Shown: positions 11,090-51,123 of the stretch, piece by piece | Position numbering within the stretch: the first letter of the stretch is position 1 | How the letters are laid out: every line of letters begins with the position of its first letter | Source of the DNA: Flavobacterium sp. WC2421 | Lineage (GTDB): Bacteria; Bacteroidota; Bacteroidia; Flavobacteriales; Flavobacteriaceae | Reading direction: 5' to 3' | Assembly: GCF_040822115.1 (NCBI RefSeq) | Contig: NZ_CP162004.1 | Span: 1,364,001 to 1,428,000, forward strand | Length of the DNA stretch: 64,000 bases | The notes under the pieces: generated by a model | Databases searched by the model: none | The model's input: the letters and a program-made list of their open reading frames with translations, nothing else | Told to the model about the DNA's origin: nothing | Translations under genes and position numbers: made by a program

Positions 11090-11103
11090 CTGGAGCTATA
11101 TCC

Positions 11104-11172
11104 AGCTATTCGTTTCAATCTTTTCTTTTTTAAAGAAAAAAAGAAAAGGATTTTCACTGCTATCTGGGCTAA
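11104..11172 (+). repeat. REP-like dispersed element, copy 1
   Basis: Left arm GCTATTCGTTTCAATC, a central A/T hairpin (CTTTTC...GAAAAG) and right arm GGATTTTCACTGCTATC. The same arms with a different central hairpin occur at 33733-33822 (same orientation) and 35093-35202 (reverse). The ~300-bp gap between the DUF5686 gene and ppa holds this element, the preceding hairpin repeat, a small CTGGA/TCCAG hairpin and the ppa promoter; I see no gene in it. Confidence 0.7.
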
Positions 11173-11304
11173 AAAAAAAGAGTTCAAAGGCGATGGTAAT
11201 ATTTTTTTTAATTGTAACATTATTATTTAAAGAAAACACTTTTGTCCTTTCTCGTTGATAAATTGTAAAGCTTTTGTCTCATTGTGTTTTAAGATAAATA
11301 ATTC

Positions 11305-33634: not shown

Positions 33635-33732
33635 ACAAGAATACTTTTACAGTATTTCTCAAACCTTTTCTTGACAACATATCGATATTTTTTTAGAGCG
33701 AATGATTGGTGCTTTTTTACCATCATCCTTCC

Positions 33733-33822
33733 TGCTTTCCGTTTCAATCTTTTATCCTGAATTTAGTTCAGGATCCTGAACTAAATTCAGGATAAAAAGG
33801 ATTTTCACTGCAATCAGGGCTA
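33733..33822 (+). repeat. REP-like dispersed element, copy 2
   Basis: Arms GCTTTCCGTTTCAATC and GGATTTTCACTGCAATC flank a perfect 40-bp palindrome (33754-33793, half ATCCTGAATTTAGTTCAGGA). The 484-bp gap between the reductase and metH holds the palindrome, riboswitch and this element, but no gene. Confidence 0.75.
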
Positions 33823-33908
33823 AAAAGAAACAATAGTGAACTTTTGTAATTAATAATCAAAAGTATAAATCACAACAAATCATTGTGGTTTACAAGAAAT
33901 AAAAAGTT

Positions 33909-45491: not shown

Positions 45492-46733
45492 ATGGAAGAA
45501 AGTAAGAGTTTGTTTAAAACCTATAGTGGTATTATATGGTTATTATGTGGTATAACTGCAGGAAGTATATTAGGTTTGGTTTTTGGGAAAGATGTAGAAG
45601 TGATTAAGCCACTTGGCGATATATTTCTAAATTTACTTTTTACGGCTATTATTCCTTTGATTTTCTTTACGATAGCGTCGTCAATTGCCAGTTTAGAAAA
45701 ATCAGAAAAATTAGGAAAGTTATTTGTAGTCGTTATTGGAGTATTTTTAAGTACGGTATTGGTATCGGCTATAATTATGATAATAGGTGTTTTGCTTTTT
45801 CCAATTCATCAAGATATTATCATTTCCAAAATTCCATTGGAGAGTATGCAAACCACTAGTCCTGGATCACAAATCACTCAATTACTGACTGCCAATGATT
45901 TTTATGAATTGCTTTCTAGAAAAAGCATGTTGGCTTTAATCATTTTCTCCTTTTTAATAGGATTTGCCAGTTTACGTTCGGGAGAGAAAGGAGAAAGTTT
46001 TAGAGGGTTCCTAAATTCAGGAAACGAGGTAATGAAACAATTACTACACTTGATTATGAAAACGGCACCGGTAGGTTTGGGTGCTTATTTTGCGTATCAA
46101 GTAGGTATTTTTGGACCGCAGTTATTTGGAGCCTATGCTAAGCCATTAGGACTTTATTATGCAGTATGTGGATTCTACTTTGTGGTGTTCTTTAGTTTGT
46201 ATGCTTTCCTTGCAGGAGGAAATAACGGATTGAAAGTGTTTTGGAGTAATAATATTGCACCTTCCTTAACAGCTTTGGGAACTTGCAGTAGTATTGCAAC
46301 AATTCCAGCAAATCTGGAGGCAACAGAGAAAATGAATGTTCCTTCACATATCCGTAATATTGCAATTCCATTAGGAGCTCCTTTGCATAAAGATGGATCA
46401 AGTATGTCATCTATTATAAAAATTGCTGTAATTTTTGCCATGTTCGGTAAAGATTTTACAGATCCCAATACCTTACTTTTAGCATTAGGGATTACGGTTA
46501 TCGTTTCGGTAGTTGAAGGAGGAATTCCTAATGGTGGATATATTGGGGAGATTCTAGCAATCACTATTTATGGTTTTCCAATGGAACAAGCTTTACCTGC
46601 AGCCATGATTGTAGGAACATTAGTTGATCCCATGGCTACTTTGCTAAATGCGAATGGAGATGTAGTCTCGGCGATGTTAATCACGCGTATTTCAGAAGGA
46701 AAAGAATGGCTTTCAGTAAAATTAGCTCGCTAA
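45492..46733 (+). CDS. Dicarboxylate/amino acid:cation symporter (DAACS family)
   Basis: 413 residues, about eight membrane helices and two re-entrant hairpins. Family markers are the serine-rich loop (ALGTCSSIATIPANL), the conserved PLGAPLHKDGSSMSS and VEGGIPNGGYIGE, and a late VDPMATLLNANGD that replaces the NMDGT-like site. It takes up glutamate, aspartate or C4-dicarboxylates with Na+ or H+. Single gene. Confidence 0.9.
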   Translation: MEESKSLFKTYSGIIWLLCGITAGSILGLVFGKDVEVIKPLGDIFLNLLFTAIIPLIFFTIASSIASLEKSEKLGKLFVVVIGVFLSTVLVSAIIMIIGVLLFPIHQDIIISKIPLESMQTTSPGSQITQLLTANDFYELLSRKSMLALIIFSFLIGFASLRSGEKGESFRGFLNSGNEVMKQLLHLIMKTAPVGLGAYFAYQVGIFGPQLFGAYAKPLGLYYAVCGFYFVVFFSLYAFLAGGNNGLKVFWSNNIAPSLTALGTCSSIATIPANLEATEKMNVPSHIRNIAIPLGAPLHKDGSSMSSIIKIAVIFAMFGKDFTDPNTLLLALGITVIVSVVEGGIPNGGYIGEILAITIYGFPMEQALPAAMIVGTLVDPMATLLNANGDVVSAMLITRISEGKEWLSVKLAR

Positions 46734-46885: not shown

Positions 46886-46912
46886 TTTGTATTGAATATG
46901 TTTATACATTTG
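46886..46912 (+). promoter_or_regulatory. Promoter of the Phe/Tyr operon leader
   Basis: TTTG at 46886-46889 and TACATTTG at 46905-46912; spacing 15 bp, a little short, but the -7 box is exact. The start would fall about 20-25 bp before the leader peptide. Confidence 0.6.
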
Positions 46913-46941
46913 CATTGATAACATTGAAAAAAAACATCAAA

Positions 46942-47001
46942 ATGTCAACTAATAACCGTTTTTATTTTAGCAACACTTATTTCTTCTTTTATAGGAAGTA
47001 A
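46942..47001 (+). CDS. Phe/Tyr-rich attenuation leader peptide
   Basis: ATG to TAA, 19 residues: MSTNNRFYFSNTYFFFYRK. Five phenylalanines and three tyrosines, eight of 19 residues, including the run YFFFY. It lies between the promoter and a terminator in front of the prephenate dehydratase gene, exactly as enterobacterial pheL does. The aromatic codons overlap the first strand of the regulatory hairpins. Too short for routine gene calling. Confidence 0.85.
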   Translation: MSTNNRFYFSNTYFFFYRK

Positions 47002-47081
47002 GGATTGTGCTATGGTTATTTGAAATAAAAGAAACAAATAAAAATAATATACAATCCTGATGAAAATCAGGATTTTTTTTT
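46976..47081 (+). promoter_or_regulatory. Transcription attenuator of the Phe/Tyr operon
   Basis: Three alternative pairings are visible. 1:2 is CTTATTTC (46976-46983, inside the Tyr/Phe codons) with GAAGTAAG (46995-47002), one G-U. The antiterminator is AGGATTGT (47001-47008) with ACAATCCT (47051-47058). The terminator is AATCCTGA (47053-47060) with TCAGGATT (47067-47074), then nine T's. A ribosome stalled at the aromatic codons would free 47001-47008 to form the antiterminator and allow read-through into pheA. Confidence 0.8.
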
Positions 47082-47088
47082 GGAATAA

Positions 47089-47916
47089 ATGGGAACAAAA
47101 ATTGCAATTCAAGGGATACTAGGTTCTTTTCACCATCAAGTGGCACAAGAATATTTTGAGCAAAATATAGCAGTAGACGAGTGTCTGTCATTTGAAGAAT
47201 TAGTGGACAGCCTATTGTCAGGAAAATCGGAACAGGCAGTTATGGCCATTGAAAATTCAATCGCGGGGCCTATTATTCCTAATTATGCGTTGATTGATAA
47301 GAATAATTTGCACATCATTGGAGAACATTATTTAAGTATTCATCAAAATTTGATGGCGCTTAAGGGACAAAAATTGGAAGATATTGTTGAAGTACATTCT
47401 CATCCAATGGCATTATTACAGTGTATGGATTTTTTAAAAAAATATCCTAATATAAAATTAGTTGAAGATAAAGATACAGCCGAAACAGCTCGTAGAATTC
47501 AGGAGAAACAATTAAAAGGAATCGCTGCAATTGCCAGTAAAACGGCTTCGATTATGTATGATTTAGAAATTCTGGCACCAGAAATTCAAACGATTAAAAA
47601 TAACATGACTCGTTTTGTTATAATTAAAAAAGAGAATGCATTTGTAGCAAAGGAAGATATTAACAGAGCGTCTTTGAAATTTGAATTGGATCATAAAAGA
47701 GGGAGTTTAGCAGCTGTACTTAATGTAATGAGTGATTGCAAAATGAATTTGACCAAAATTCAATCCTTGCCAAAAATTGAAACTCCTTGGAAATATTCCT
47801 TTTTTGTGGATGTAACTTTTGAAAAATATGCAGATTACGAAAAAGCAAAATCGTTATTAGAAATAATGGCAGAGTATTTTAAAGTTTTGGGCGAATATAA
47901 AAATACAAAGCCATAA
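47089..47916 (+). CDS. pheA: Prephenate dehydratase
   Basis: 275 residues. Substrate motifs: AIENSIAGPIIPNYALI, SHPMALLQC and the catalytic threonine in NNMTRFVIIKK. The C-terminal ACT domain (about 190-265) begins SLKFELDHKRGSLAAVLNVM. The usual ESRP motif that binds phenylalanine reads QSLP here, so feedback by Phe may be weak or different. It makes phenylpyruvate from prephenate. First structural gene after the attenuator. Confidence 0.93.
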   Translation: MGTKIAIQGILGSFHHQVAQEYFEQNIAVDECLSFEELVDSLLSGKSEQAVMAIENSIAGPIIPNYALIDKNNLHIIGEHYLSIHQNLMALKGQKLEDIVEVHSHPMALLQCMDFLKKYPNIKLVEDKDTAETARRIQEKQLKGIAAIASKTASIMYDLEILAPEIQTIKNNMTRFVIIKKENAFVAKEDINRASLKFELDHKRGSLAAVLNVMSDCKMNLTKIQSLPKIETPWKYSFFVDVTFEKYADYEKAKSLLEIMAEYFKVLGEYKNTKP

Positions 47917-47967: not shown

Positions 47968-49116
47968 ATGATTACAACAGCAAAAAGATTAGATATCATT
48001 GAAGAATACTATTTCTCCTCTAAATTGAGAGAAGTAAGACAATTGGCATCCGAAGGGAATCCAATAATAAATATGGGAATTGGAAGTCCGGATTTGCAAC
48101 CTTCACAAGAAGTTATTGATGCAGTGGTTCTTGCCGTGAAAGAGGAAAATGCTCATGGTTATCAAAGTTATCAAGGATTACCGGAATTGAGAAATGGAAT
48201 GGTTGATTTTTATAAAAACAACTATAATGTGGATTTGAATCCCAATACTGAAGTTTTGCCTTTGATGGGTTCTAAGGAAGGTATTATGCATATTTCATTG
48301 GCTTTCTTAAATGAAGGAGATCAAGTATTAATACCAAATCCAGGATATCCTACTTATACTTCAGTAACTAATTTAGTGGGTGCTGTTCCCGTTTATTATG
48401 ATTTAAAAGAAAGTACAAATTGGGAACCTGATTTTGACGCTTTAGAAAAATTGGATTTATCTAAAGTTAAAATTATGTGGATTGGTTATCCACATATGCC
48501 AACAGGAGCGAGAGGAAGTTTGGAGTTATTTGAAAAGTTAGTGGCTTTCGCCAAAAAACATACTATTTTATTAATCAATGATAATCCATATAGTTTTGTT
48601 TTGAATGATAAGCCAATGAGTTTGTTACAAGTGGAAGGCGCGAAGGACGTAGCATTAGAGCTAAATTCTTTAAGTAAAACGTTCAATATGGCAGGATGGA
48701 GAGTAGGAATGGTTCTGGGGAATGCAGCTTGTATTGATGCTGTTTTGAAAGTAAAAAGCAACATGGACAGCGGTATGTTTTTTGGAATTCAAAAAGGGGC
48801 TATAGCTGCTTTAAAAAGTGATAAAGCGTGGTTTGATTCGATGAATGAAATTTACAAGAAACGTCGTGTTTTGACAGAACAATTAGCGGAGAAATTAAAC
48901 TGTAAAGTATATAAGGAAGGTGTTGGATTGTTTGTTTGGGCCAAATTGCCAGAAGGAATAACTTCAGCTGAAAAATTTATAGACCAAATCTTACATGAGA
49001 AACATCTCTTTATAGCACCAGGAACAATTTTTGGAAGTAACGGAGAAGGATATATTCGTTTTGCATTATGTGTAGGGGAAGAAAAAGTACAGGAAGCAAT
49101 TGATAGATTTAATTAA
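47968..49116 (+). CDS. Class I/II (aromatic) aminotransferase
   Basis: 382 residues. PLP lysine in LNSLSKTFNMAGWRVGMVLG; NPGYPTYTS, the phosphate-binding MGSKEGIMHI, and the GRAP-like C-terminal arginine in GYIRFALCV. Its place between pheA and tyrA suggests that it converts phenylpyruvate and 4-hydroxyphenylpyruvate (or prephenate) to the amino acids. It ends in TAA directly followed by the ATG of tyrA. Confidence 0.88.
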   Translation: MITTAKRLDIIEEYYFSSKLREVRQLASEGNPIINMGIGSPDLQPSQEVIDAVVLAVKEENAHGYQSYQGLPELRNGMVDFYKNNYNVDLNPNTEVLPLMGSKEGIMHISLAFLNEGDQVLIPNPGYPTYTSVTNLVGAVPVYYDLKESTNWEPDFDALEKLDLSKVKIMWIGYPHMPTGARGSLELFEKLVAFAKKHTILLINDNPYSFVLNDKPMSLLQVEGAKDVALELNSLSKTFNMAGWRVGMVLGNAACIDAVLKVKSNMDSGMFFGIQKGAIAALKSDKAWFDSMNEIYKKRRVLTEQLAEKLNCKVYKEGVGLFVWAKLPEGITSAEKFIDQILHEKHLFIAPGTIFGSNGEGYIRFALCVGEEKVQEAIDRFN

Positions 49117-49974
49117 ATGAAAGTTTATATAATAGGAATAGGATTAATAGGAGGATCGATGGCGTTAGACATTAAAACCATAGATCCATCAGCCACTATT
49201 TATGGTATCGATCATAACGAAAGTCATGTGAAACAAGCATTGGATTTAGGGGTTATTGATGAAGCCGCTCAATTGGAAGATCTATCGAATGCTGATTTTG
49301 TAATTGTATCGGTTCCAGTAGATGTTGCCTTAACGCTATTGCCTAAGGTATTGGATGCTGTAGGTGAGAATTCTATTGTTTTTGAAGTGGGTTCTACCAA
49401 AGCGCCAATTTGTGAAGCAATTGCTAACCATTCAAGAAGAAGAAATTTTATTGCAACTCATCCTATTGCAGGAACCGAGTTTTCAGGGCCATCGGCAGCA
49501 ATACATGATTTGTTCAATGGGAAGACTAATATAATTTGTGAAGTAGAACGTACTGCTTTTAAATTGCAGGAGAAAGCATTAGCCCTTTTTAAAGCAATGG
49601 GAATGAGAATACGTTATATGGATCCAAAATCACATGACAAACATATTGCTTATGTGTCGCATTTGTCTCACATTAGTGCTTTTATGCTTGGAAAAACAGT
49701 AATAAACAAAGAAAAAGACGAGCAGGATATATTTGATATGGCGGGTTCTGGTTTTGAAAGTACAGTGCGTTTGGCAAAAAGTTCGCCTGCTATGTGGACC
49801 CCAATTTTCAAACAAAATAAGTTGGAAGTGGTGGAAGCTTTAGAAGGATATATAGCCAACTTGACTCAATTTAAAGATTTATTGGTAAAGGATGAATACA
49901 ATGCCATTTTTGATGAAATGGAAAGTGTAAATAAAATAAAAGAAATATTGAATGGAATGAATGTAAAAAAATAA
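49117..49974 (+). CDS. tyrA: Prephenate dehydrogenase
   Basis: 285 residues. Rossmann NAD site VYIIGIGLIGGSMALDI, EVGSTKAPI, the THPIAGTEFSGP active-site segment and HDKHIAYVSHLSHISAF, which carries the catalytic and substrate histidines. It oxidatively decarboxylates prephenate to 4-hydroxyphenylpyruvate. No ACT domain is attached. Zero spacing to the preceding gene. Confidence 0.92.
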   Translation: MKVYIIGIGLIGGSMALDIKTIDPSATIYGIDHNESHVKQALDLGVIDEAAQLEDLSNADFVIVSVPVDVALTLLPKVLDAVGENSIVFEVGSTKAPICEAIANHSRRRNFIATHPIAGTEFSGPSAAIHDLFNGKTNIICEVERTAFKLQEKALALFKAMGMRIRYMDPKSHDKHIAYVSHLSHISAFMLGKTVINKEKDEQDIFDMAGSGFESTVRLAKSSPAMWTPIFKQNKLEVVEALEGYIANLTQFKDLLVKDEYNAIFDEMESVNKIKEILNGMNVKK

Positions 49975-50040: not shown

Positions 50041-51123
50041 ATGGAAAACAAGAAAGAAATGAGAAATTGGTTGAATGAATTTAATTTAACTCATCCATTT
50101 GTAATTGCAGGACCTTGTAGTGCTGAAACTGAAGATCAAGTATTAAAAATTGCTCATGAATTGAAAGATTCAGATGTAAGTGTTTTTAGAGCAGGTATAT
50201 GGAAACCAAGAACACGTCCAGGAGGATTTGAAGGTGTGGGAGAAATTGGTTTGAAATGGTTGCAAAAAGCAAAAGCAGAGACAGGTTTATTGATGGGAAC
50301 TGAAGTAGCAACAGCGGCACACTGTAAATTAGCTTTGGAGCATGATATTGATGTTTTGTGGGTAGGTGCTCGTACAACTGCAAACCCGTTTGCAGTTCAA
50401 GAAATTGCTGATACATTGAAAGGAACGGATAAAATTGTATTGATCAAAAACCCAGTGAATCCAGATATGGCTTTGTGGTTAGGTGGTGTAGAGCGTTTAT
50501 ATGCTGCTGGAATTAAAAATCTTGGAGTAATTCACAGAGGATTTTCTACTTACGAAAAAACAAAATACAGAAACATTCCAGAATGGCAAATTGCTATTGA
50601 ATTGCAAAATAAATTCCCTGATTTACCATTAATCATTGATCCATCTCATATCACTGGTAACCGAGATATGATTCTTGAAGTAACTCAAGAAGCATTGGAT
50701 TTAAATTATGACGGTATGATCATTGAAACTCATATTGATCCAGACAATGCTTGGAGTGATGCTGCACAACAAGTAACGCCAGACGCTTTGAAACAAATTT
50801 TCAAAGATTTGAGAGTAAGAAAAGTAAGTGGAGACACGGATGAGTATGCTAATAAAATGACAAAATTAAGAGCAAACATTGATGTTCTTGATGCTAATTT
50901 ATTAGAGTTATTAGGAAAAAGAATGAAAGTGGCTGACGAAATTGGTCAAGTGAAAAAAGACTCAAATGTGGCTGTTTTACAAAACACACGTTGGAACGAA
51001 ATTCTTGGAAAAATGATTCTTGAAGGGGAGAAAAAAGGCCTTTCAGAAGAATTTATTCTTAGAATGTTCAAAGCAATTCACCAAGAAAGTATTGGTCATC
51101 AAGACAAAATATTGAATGCATAA
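50041..51123 (+). CDS. aroF: Bifunctional DAHP synthase / chorismate mutase
   Basis: 360 residues. Residues 1-265 are a type I-beta DAHP synthase: FVIAGPCSAETEDQVL, FRAGIWKPRTRPGGFEG, and the metal and substrate residues in IDPSHITGNRDMI. About 272-355 is an AroQ-type chorismate mutase helix bundle (KMTKLRANIDVLDANLLELL, KRMKVADEIGQVKK). It thus combines the entry step of the shikimate pathway with the step leading to prephenate, the substrate of the two upstream enzymes. Last gene of the attenuated operon. Confidence 0.94.
   Translation: MENKKEMRNWLNEFNLTHPFVIAGPCSAETEDQVLKIAHELKDSDVSVFRAGIWKPRTRPGGFEGVGEIGLKWLQKAKAETGLLMGTEVATAAHCKLALEHDIDVLWVGARTTANPFAVQEIADTLKGTDKIVLIKNPVNPDMALWLGGVERLYAAGIKNLGVIHRGFSTYEKTKYRNIPEWQIAIELQNKFPDLPLIIDPSHITGNRDMILEVTQEALDLNYDGMIIETHIDPDNAWSDAAQQVTPDALKQIFKDLRVRKVSGDTDEYANKMTKLRANIDVLDANLLELLGKRMKVADEIGQVKKDSNVAVLQNTRWNEILGKMILEGEKKGLSEEFILRMFKAIHQESIGHQDKILNA

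Follow-up and report, generated by a model that had tools for sequence, protein, structure and literature searches.

The pheA operon of Flavobacterium sp. WC2421 is in all likelihood governed by classic (ribosome-mediated) transcription attenuation, a reading that we base on the sequence of its leader region and on its relatives, and by means of this leader the bacterium very probably switches on its aromatic amino acid genes when aromatic amino acids are short. The DNA analyzed, here called the window, comprises 64,000 nucleotides (bases 1364001-1428000) of a one-contig genome of 3.83 Mb. A gap of 355 bases between a symporter-type gene and pheA holds a 19-codon frame (ATG to TAA, 46942-47001) with five Phe and three Tyr codons, eight aromatic in all, and, in the 87 nt from its stop codon to the pheA start, a terminator. 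The initial annotation had placed this frame ahead of pheA and was exact to the base. The features, by position in the window, are as follows.

45492-46733: Na+/dicarboxylate symporter-type gene (PF00375)
46886..46912, + strand: putative Bacteroidota-type promoter, TTTG at 46886-46889 and -7 element TACATTTG at 46905-46912 (from sequence, loose -7 motif)
46942..47001, + strand: leader peptide gene, MSTNNRFYFSNTYFFFYRK, stop TAA (from sequence; aromatic frame kept in relatives)
46952..46985, + strand: segment 1 (46952-46959, 46970-46973, 46976-46985), predicted to pair with segment 2 when no ribosome is on it (predicted fold)
46993..47019, + strand: segment 2, including the antiterminator 5' arm at 47001-47008 (fold, arm-swap comparison, geometry)
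47051..47058, + strand: segment 3, the antiterminator 3' arm, overlapping the terminator 5' arm (exact complement of 47001-47008; arm-swap comparison)
47053..47081, + strand: intrinsic terminator, stem 47053-47074 and T tract 47073-47081 (sequence, covariation)
47089..47916, + strand: pheA, prephenate dehydratase (PF00800)
47968..49116, + strand: class I/II aminotransferase (PF00155)
49117..49974, + strand: tyrA, prephenate dehydrogenase (NF006307, above its cut-off)
50041..51123, + strand: aroF-type DAHP synthase fused to chorismate mutase (PF00793 and PF01817)

The window has 726 ATG frames of 10-40 codons, both strands counted; none but the leader has 8 aromatic residues in 12, and a scan of the window for biased short frames with a downstream terminator returned this frame alone. 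Behind it, the terminator stem (47053-47074) closes a GAAA loop with 9 pairs and runs into nine T residues (47073-47081), and the 8 bp of 47001-47008 (AGGATTGT) are the exact reverse complement of 47051-47058 (ACAATCCT), so that antiterminator and terminator are mutually exclusive. The predicted 1:2 pairs are 46976-46985/46993-47002, 46970-46973/47005-47008, and 46952-46959/47012-47019. Folded alone, the leader up to 47050 gave this 1:2 structure (-19.4 kcal/mol), which occupies 47001-47002 and 47005-47008, the stretch 46998-47062 gave the antiterminator (-14.8 kcal/mol), and the terminator stretch reached -11.4 kcal/mol. The perfect 8-bp antiterminator and the terminator with nine T's of the initial annotation were both confirmed in this way, and its 1:2 pairing inside the aromatic codons is present in the predicted fold. 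Within the 801 bases around the leader we found 2 terminator-like sites, which are one hairpin seen on both strands, against 0.2 expected.

To follow the element in close relatives, we kept the best 80 of 228 confirmed PheA relatives in genome contigs (77 named Flavobacterium and three with other names). Together with the window, 81/81 of these loci have an ATG-started frame with RFYF ahead of pheA; they are close kin rather than independent cases, the search word was set after inspection, and a looser ranking put another frame first in some rows. A family sample of 299 genomes contained 268 with PheA, of which we examined 69, namely the 29 best after the window's own and 40 hand-chosen from the places listed. 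The aromatic leader was present in all 69 (68 from other genera, some genera appearing twice, and one Flavobacterium, L082, which seems to duplicate the record L074). A detector score of at least 8 was reached by 69/69 of them, by 1/1,380 dinucleotide shuffles, and by 1/69 reverse strands. A short frame rich in codons for the end products is thus found in the window (8/19 codons for Phe or Tyr), in 81/81 loci of the Flavobacterium group, and in 68/68 from other genera. The initial annotation had named loss of the frame, or random codons in it, as what would speak against attenuation; every family leader examined keeps the aromatic codons.

An intrinsic terminator lies between leader and pheA in 148/150 loci, the exceptions by the detector used being L009 and L095. 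In an alignment of 73 leaders, 98.6% of the terminator cells are paired and both sides changed in 7/9 pairs (shuffle mean, 3.0; 0/500 shuffles as high), and the covariation score drops by more than half when the partner is slid by one column. For the antiterminator columns of the same 73 rows (MAFFT), 65.2% of cells are paired; with the partner moved by one column, 62.7% are paired and the covariation score is 0.266, versus 0.218 in register. About 28/73 rows look out of register by one base at this place, and 60/73 rows do not pair at the G-C position 47007/47052, so that the arm is shorter outside Flavobacterium. RNAalifold on the whole alignment returned the terminator alone and neither the 1:2 nor the 2:3 stem, as the stems are mutually exclusive; its output carries no confirmation of those two stems.

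Since the register problem spoiled the column count, we added an arm-swap comparison, in which the terminator arm of each locus was set against its own segment 2 and against segment 2 of loci with another arm. The mean Watson-Crick run was 6.03 for a locus's own arms versus 3.91 for lineage-swapped arms (6.73 versus 5.35 with G-U allowed), and a run of at least 6 was present in 132/148 loci versus 667/2,960 shuffles. The commonest pairs were AGGATTGT/ACAATCCT (56 loci), GGGATTGT/ACAATCCC (19), CGGGACT/AGTCCCG (12), and CGAGAC/GTCTCG (11), and more distant loci have AGCGGGA, GAGAACT, and CGAGGCTTT with their complements. Terminator and antiterminator arms therefore change together between lineages, the kind of compensatory change that the initial annotation had proposed to look for in an alignment of relatives. 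The arm CGGGAC/CGAGAC is kept in leaders ending in KRGTGLL and in leaders ending in KRNETLYV, which read it in different frames. Upstream of the arm, pairing with segment 1 is predicted widely: the segment 2 arm is at least half paired upstream in 133/141 loci, 0.75 of its bases being paired versus 0.58 in codon-shuffled leaders, and the mean leader fold is -17.8 versus -10.9 kcal/mol. Part of the 1:2 pairing comes from composition, as codon-shuffled leaders still reach 0.58.

Transcription probably starts from an element at 46905-46912 (TACATTTG) that we take to be of the Bacteroidota promoter type. The initial annotation had spoken of a good promoter; this holds for the -7 element and is weaker for TTTG (46886-46889), which lies only a short 15 nt ahead of it. 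Across the loci, TAnnTTnG occurs 15-60 nt before the leader in 137/150 versus 155/1,500 shuffles, a looser motif that was picked once the sequences had been seen. The exact form TAnnTTTG was discarded as a promoter test, being found within 110 nt in 43/150 loci, mostly far upstream, and at 15-60 nt in 15/150. A scan for sigma-70-type promoters in the 801 bases around the leader was uninformative, since it gave 6 matches versus 4.5 expected.

From this anatomy and its conservation we infer promoter use, translation of the leader, stalling, and read-through, in the following way. RNA polymerase would start a few bases past the -7 element and a ribosome would start on the leader. With charged tRNA-Phe and tRNA-Tyr plentiful, the ribosome would reach the stop codon, where it would cover segment 2, or be released, whereupon 1:2 would form; segment 3 would be left free to pair with segment 4, and the resulting terminator would end transcription before pheA. 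With these charged tRNAs scarce, the ribosome would stall on the YFFFY block and cover segment 1, and 47001-47008 would then be free to pair with 47051-47058, no terminator would form, and the genes for PheA, the aminotransferase, TyrA, and AroF would be transcribed.

The position of the aromatic codons is what this mechanism would need. We counted distances back from the base at which the antiterminator arm begins. Of the 148 loci with a terminator, 132 have an arm of 6 or more, and setting aside 6 AT-only arms left 126 loci for the count, 45 of them from other genera. Phe, Tyr, or Trp stands at 12-14, 15-17, 18-20, and 21-23 nt before the arm in 124, 126, 126, and 126 of the 126 loci, respectively (128-129/132 for this near block before the AT-only arms were dropped). 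The codon at 24-26 nt is aromatic in 106/126, a share that drops to 28-49 further out, and a second aromatic block lies 36-44 nt before the arm (100-106/126). The predicted partner of the arm, segment 1, has medians 17-31 nt upstream of it. A ribosome with its A site in a given codon covers about 12 nt further, so that with the A site in the near block its edge would lie just short of the arm. The codon placement is thus such that a stalled ribosome would cover segment 1 and free segment 2. In the window, a stall on Tyr13, Phe14, Phe15, or Phe16 would leave 47001-47008 free, a stall at Tyr17 would cover it partly, and a ribosome at the stop codon would cover the arm. The frame runs past the arm start in 103/141 loci, with the stop codon ending 12-22 nt beyond, and a ribosome at the stop would cover the arm there too.

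Phe and Tyr are both present in 150/150 leaders, and a Trp codon occurs in 54/68 leaders of other genera and in 22/82 of the Flavobacterium group. The distance to the arm was determined for 63 Trp codons; it is 13 nt for 21, in the near block, 29 nt for 15, and 38-44 nt for 23, around the outer block. Several leaders without Trp have Phe or Tyr in the aligned place. Joint sensing of Phe, Tyr, and Trp is plausible because the operon ends in a DAHP synthase, which feeds all three pathways, and among the Trp codons it is those 13 nt before the arm, and only those, whose position plausibly argues for it. The initial annotation saw in the mix of Phe and Tyr an operon making both amino acids; with Trp added in many relatives, this wording is perhaps too narrow.

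As for the neighboring genes, the aminotransferase, tyrA, and aroF were all matched in the fetched DNA of 80/80 Flavobacterium-group loci, and the upstream transporter in 22/80 (three of the 80 with <1 kb upstream). Of 28 loci of other genera with 1.5-kb flanks, 28 gave a match to the aminotransferase, 27 to tyrA, and none to the transporter; aroF lies beyond the flank. The leader is therefore linked to pheA rather than to the gene upstream, since the transporter often went unmatched where the leader stayed. At greater distance the remaining operon genes vary: 18 more distant loci with a leader had the aminotransferase in 13 cases, tyrA in 9, and aroF in 5.

To look further out we searched 148 genomes of the order, of which 74 matched, and 148 of the phylum, of which 128 matched. 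The leader was present at diverged PheA loci of the genus or family (L167, L173, and L185) and in three genomes of family f2 (L174, L176, and L177). In family f15, three of the five genomes examined have a reduced leader MNRLENTFNSFYFIYDR (L168-L170), another has MNTIEFTFNCFYFFYDR with a terminator (L172), and in the fifth (L171) no leader was seen; the attenuator may be minimal or in decay in these f15 leaders. No leader was seen in L175 (family f12) or L178 (family f16) either. Among 19 genomes examined outside the order with a PheA match of 2.1e-61 or better, the last 600 bases gave a score of at least 7 in 17/19 and of at least 8 in 15/19 with three start codons (16/19 and 14/19 with ATG only), versus 7/950 and 1/950 shuffles; L179 and L180 had no leader. 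Three of these 17 genomes (L184, L187, and L194) carry a label outside the class; the leader of L183 has an uncertain start, and that of L191 starts with GTG.

Where the PheA match was weaker (36 genomes picked by hand, 34 of them from outside the order and 2 of family f5), 0/36 reached a score of 7 in the last 600 bases, and 900 bases gave one score of 7, far upstream (L224); since fusions and long open frames occur among these PheA genes, the true start of some could be further upstream. The leader seems tied to one PheA type, given 17/19 among the closer matches and 0/36 among the weaker. Among 23 distant leaders, a terminator-like hairpin is present in 21, and the Watson-Crick antiterminator reaches 6 or more in 15, counts that stand without a shuffle control; by the hairpin test L177 and L197 had no terminator.

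Within the Flavobacterium group the N, R, and S of NRFYFS are nearly invariant, which might instead suggest a small protein that has its own function, with a terminator that merely ends transcription from the upstream transporter gene. This is very improbable: the N-R codons of the window leader belong to segment 1 in the predicted fold, the aromatics persist from genus to genus while the C terminus and the other residues vary, the upstream gene changes while the leader stays, and terminator arm and segment 2 match each other. The frame also seems to cross the conserved RNA arm in different reading frames by group, so that the RNA rather than the peptide seems to be conserved. Translation of an aromatic leader could also act in cis through Rho access, mRNA stability, or reinitiation at pheA, and short leader genes near structural genes (peak 11-14 bp) have been described in Bacteroidetes (Korolev et al. 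2016, PMC4833913). We give such routes very little credence, as 87 nt separate the leader's stop codon from the pheA start in the window and an intrinsic terminator with a covarying antiterminator stands between leader and pheA.

Least probable, to a degree that we hardly credit it, is a ligand-binding riboswitch or T-box that controls the terminator while the aromatic frame is incidental. Both kinds of element use a terminator/antiterminator pair, and SAM riboswitches do occur elsewhere in the window, but no Rfam model matched above threshold (best, 20.1 bits versus 85.6) and the codons at set distances from the arm are almost invariably aromatic. Ribosome-mediated attenuation, as the initial annotation read the leader, is supported by the kept codons, the covarying stems, and the distance from codons to arm.

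The same genome has other leaders of this kind. A His-rich leader MFTKQLHHHHFHYCSQAMC stands ahead of hisG (PF01634; L241 1537-1596), and behind it come the hairpin AAACCCGTTTG/CAAACGGGTTT and a T tract. The genome's one Rfam match to Bacteroid-trp (C1:3456746-3456867; 64.6 versus 49 bits) encodes a WWW leader MKTTINNTWWWNNLRQ upstream of a chorismate-binding (trpE-type) gene (PF00425), and a strong hairpin and T tract follow it (L243 from 266; also in L235). We rejected as an attenuator a Thr-rich frame MNNNRTTYHSSITTQNRVAISVTSTFTTTTTTP ahead of an aspartokinase-homoserine dehydrogenase gene (L240 227-328), which is followed by a long hairpin and no clear T tract. No Ile/Leu/Val leader was found in this genome ahead of ilvD or of a gene that is probably leuA.

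The enterobacterial pheA leader (pheL; RF01859) likewise has an antiterminator and a terminator ahead of pheA, and it encodes a Phe-rich leader peptide with the attenuation logic proposed here. It differs in that the window leader mixes Phe and Tyr (and in many relatives Trp) and that the window operon also has tyrA and a DAHP synthase. The two leaders showed no relation in sequence: Rfam RF01859 (Phe_leader) scored 15.7 bits in the pheA region of the window, below its threshold of 55. RF01692 (Bacteroid-trp) gave no match there. The latter is a cis-regulatory element of Bacteroidetes (Weinberg 2010, PMC2864571), and its copy in this genome differs from the pheA leader in having Trp codons and lying ahead of a chorismate-binding gene. 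The same work has a "pheA" motif, a candidate cis-regulatory pheA element whose entry lists Actinobacteria only.

Closer to our case, work on F. psychrophilum (2021, PMC9723704) reports strong clues that leader peptides attenuate amino acid operons, and it describes structured 5' elements ahead of pheA and hisG, which are conserved in other genera of Flavobacteriaceae and have no Rfam hit. That pheA element is very probably the one described here, although F. psychrophilum was not among the loci compared. The initial annotation knew of no described case in Flavobacteriia, a statement overtaken by this report of a pheA 5' element and leader-peptide clues. In its section on the pheA element the report gives no peptide, antiterminator, or covariation, and the attenuation clue is not tied to pheA there. 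Small frames reminiscent of leader peptides occur in Bacteroides 5' untranslated regions (PMC7366714), PMC2965389 is a survey of premature terminators, and PMC8305728, in its passages on attenuation, mentions it only for enterobacteria. A 2010 comparative survey by Lopatovskaya and others, cited in PMC4833913, may cover Bacteroidetes. In the parts of the open-licence literature that bear on the pheA element we found no peptide, antiterminator, or covariation for it, and Table S7 of PMC9723704 may hold more.

The pheA attenuator is a known mechanism that is well supported here and was partly anticipated, the report for this group having so far been in outline; what we add is its anatomy, covariation, geometry, and span, the Trp codon in many leaders, and the His and Trp siblings. 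With more doubt than confidence, we also suggest that the attenuator is old and phylum-wide (in Bacteroidota, as far as can be deduced) and reads Phe, Tyr, and Trp jointly, matched to an operon that ends in a DAHP synthase. Classic attenuation needs a ribosome close behind RNA polymerase, so a kept attenuator is indirect evidence of coupling. If the suggestion is true, close coupling of ribosome and polymerase would, together with the His and Trp leaders, be a standard amino acid sensor in bacteria that largely initiate without Shine-Dalgarno pairing. In this phylum the primary sigma factor is unusual and translation initiation differs from Shine-Dalgarno (PMC9723704). The indirect evidence of coupling there comes from an attenuator that is kept in all sampled Flavobacteriaceae and reaches into other orders. 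The pheA leader would also serve as a ready reporter for coupling and as a well-defined candidate RNA family for annotation.

Elsewhere in the window there are two SAM riboswitches (RF00162; 18561-18669 and 33517-33636, both on the + strand) and a SAM-II element (RF01726; 17430-17533, - strand), all above their Rfam thresholds and together within about 16 kb. Sulfur amino acid genes may in this genome use riboswitches, and the His, Trp, and Phe/Tyr operons leader peptides. Two Flavo-1 RNAs, a motif of unclear function, lie at 11095-11174 and 33724-33825, both on the - strand, the second about 90 bases beyond a SAM riboswitch and on the opposite strand to it.
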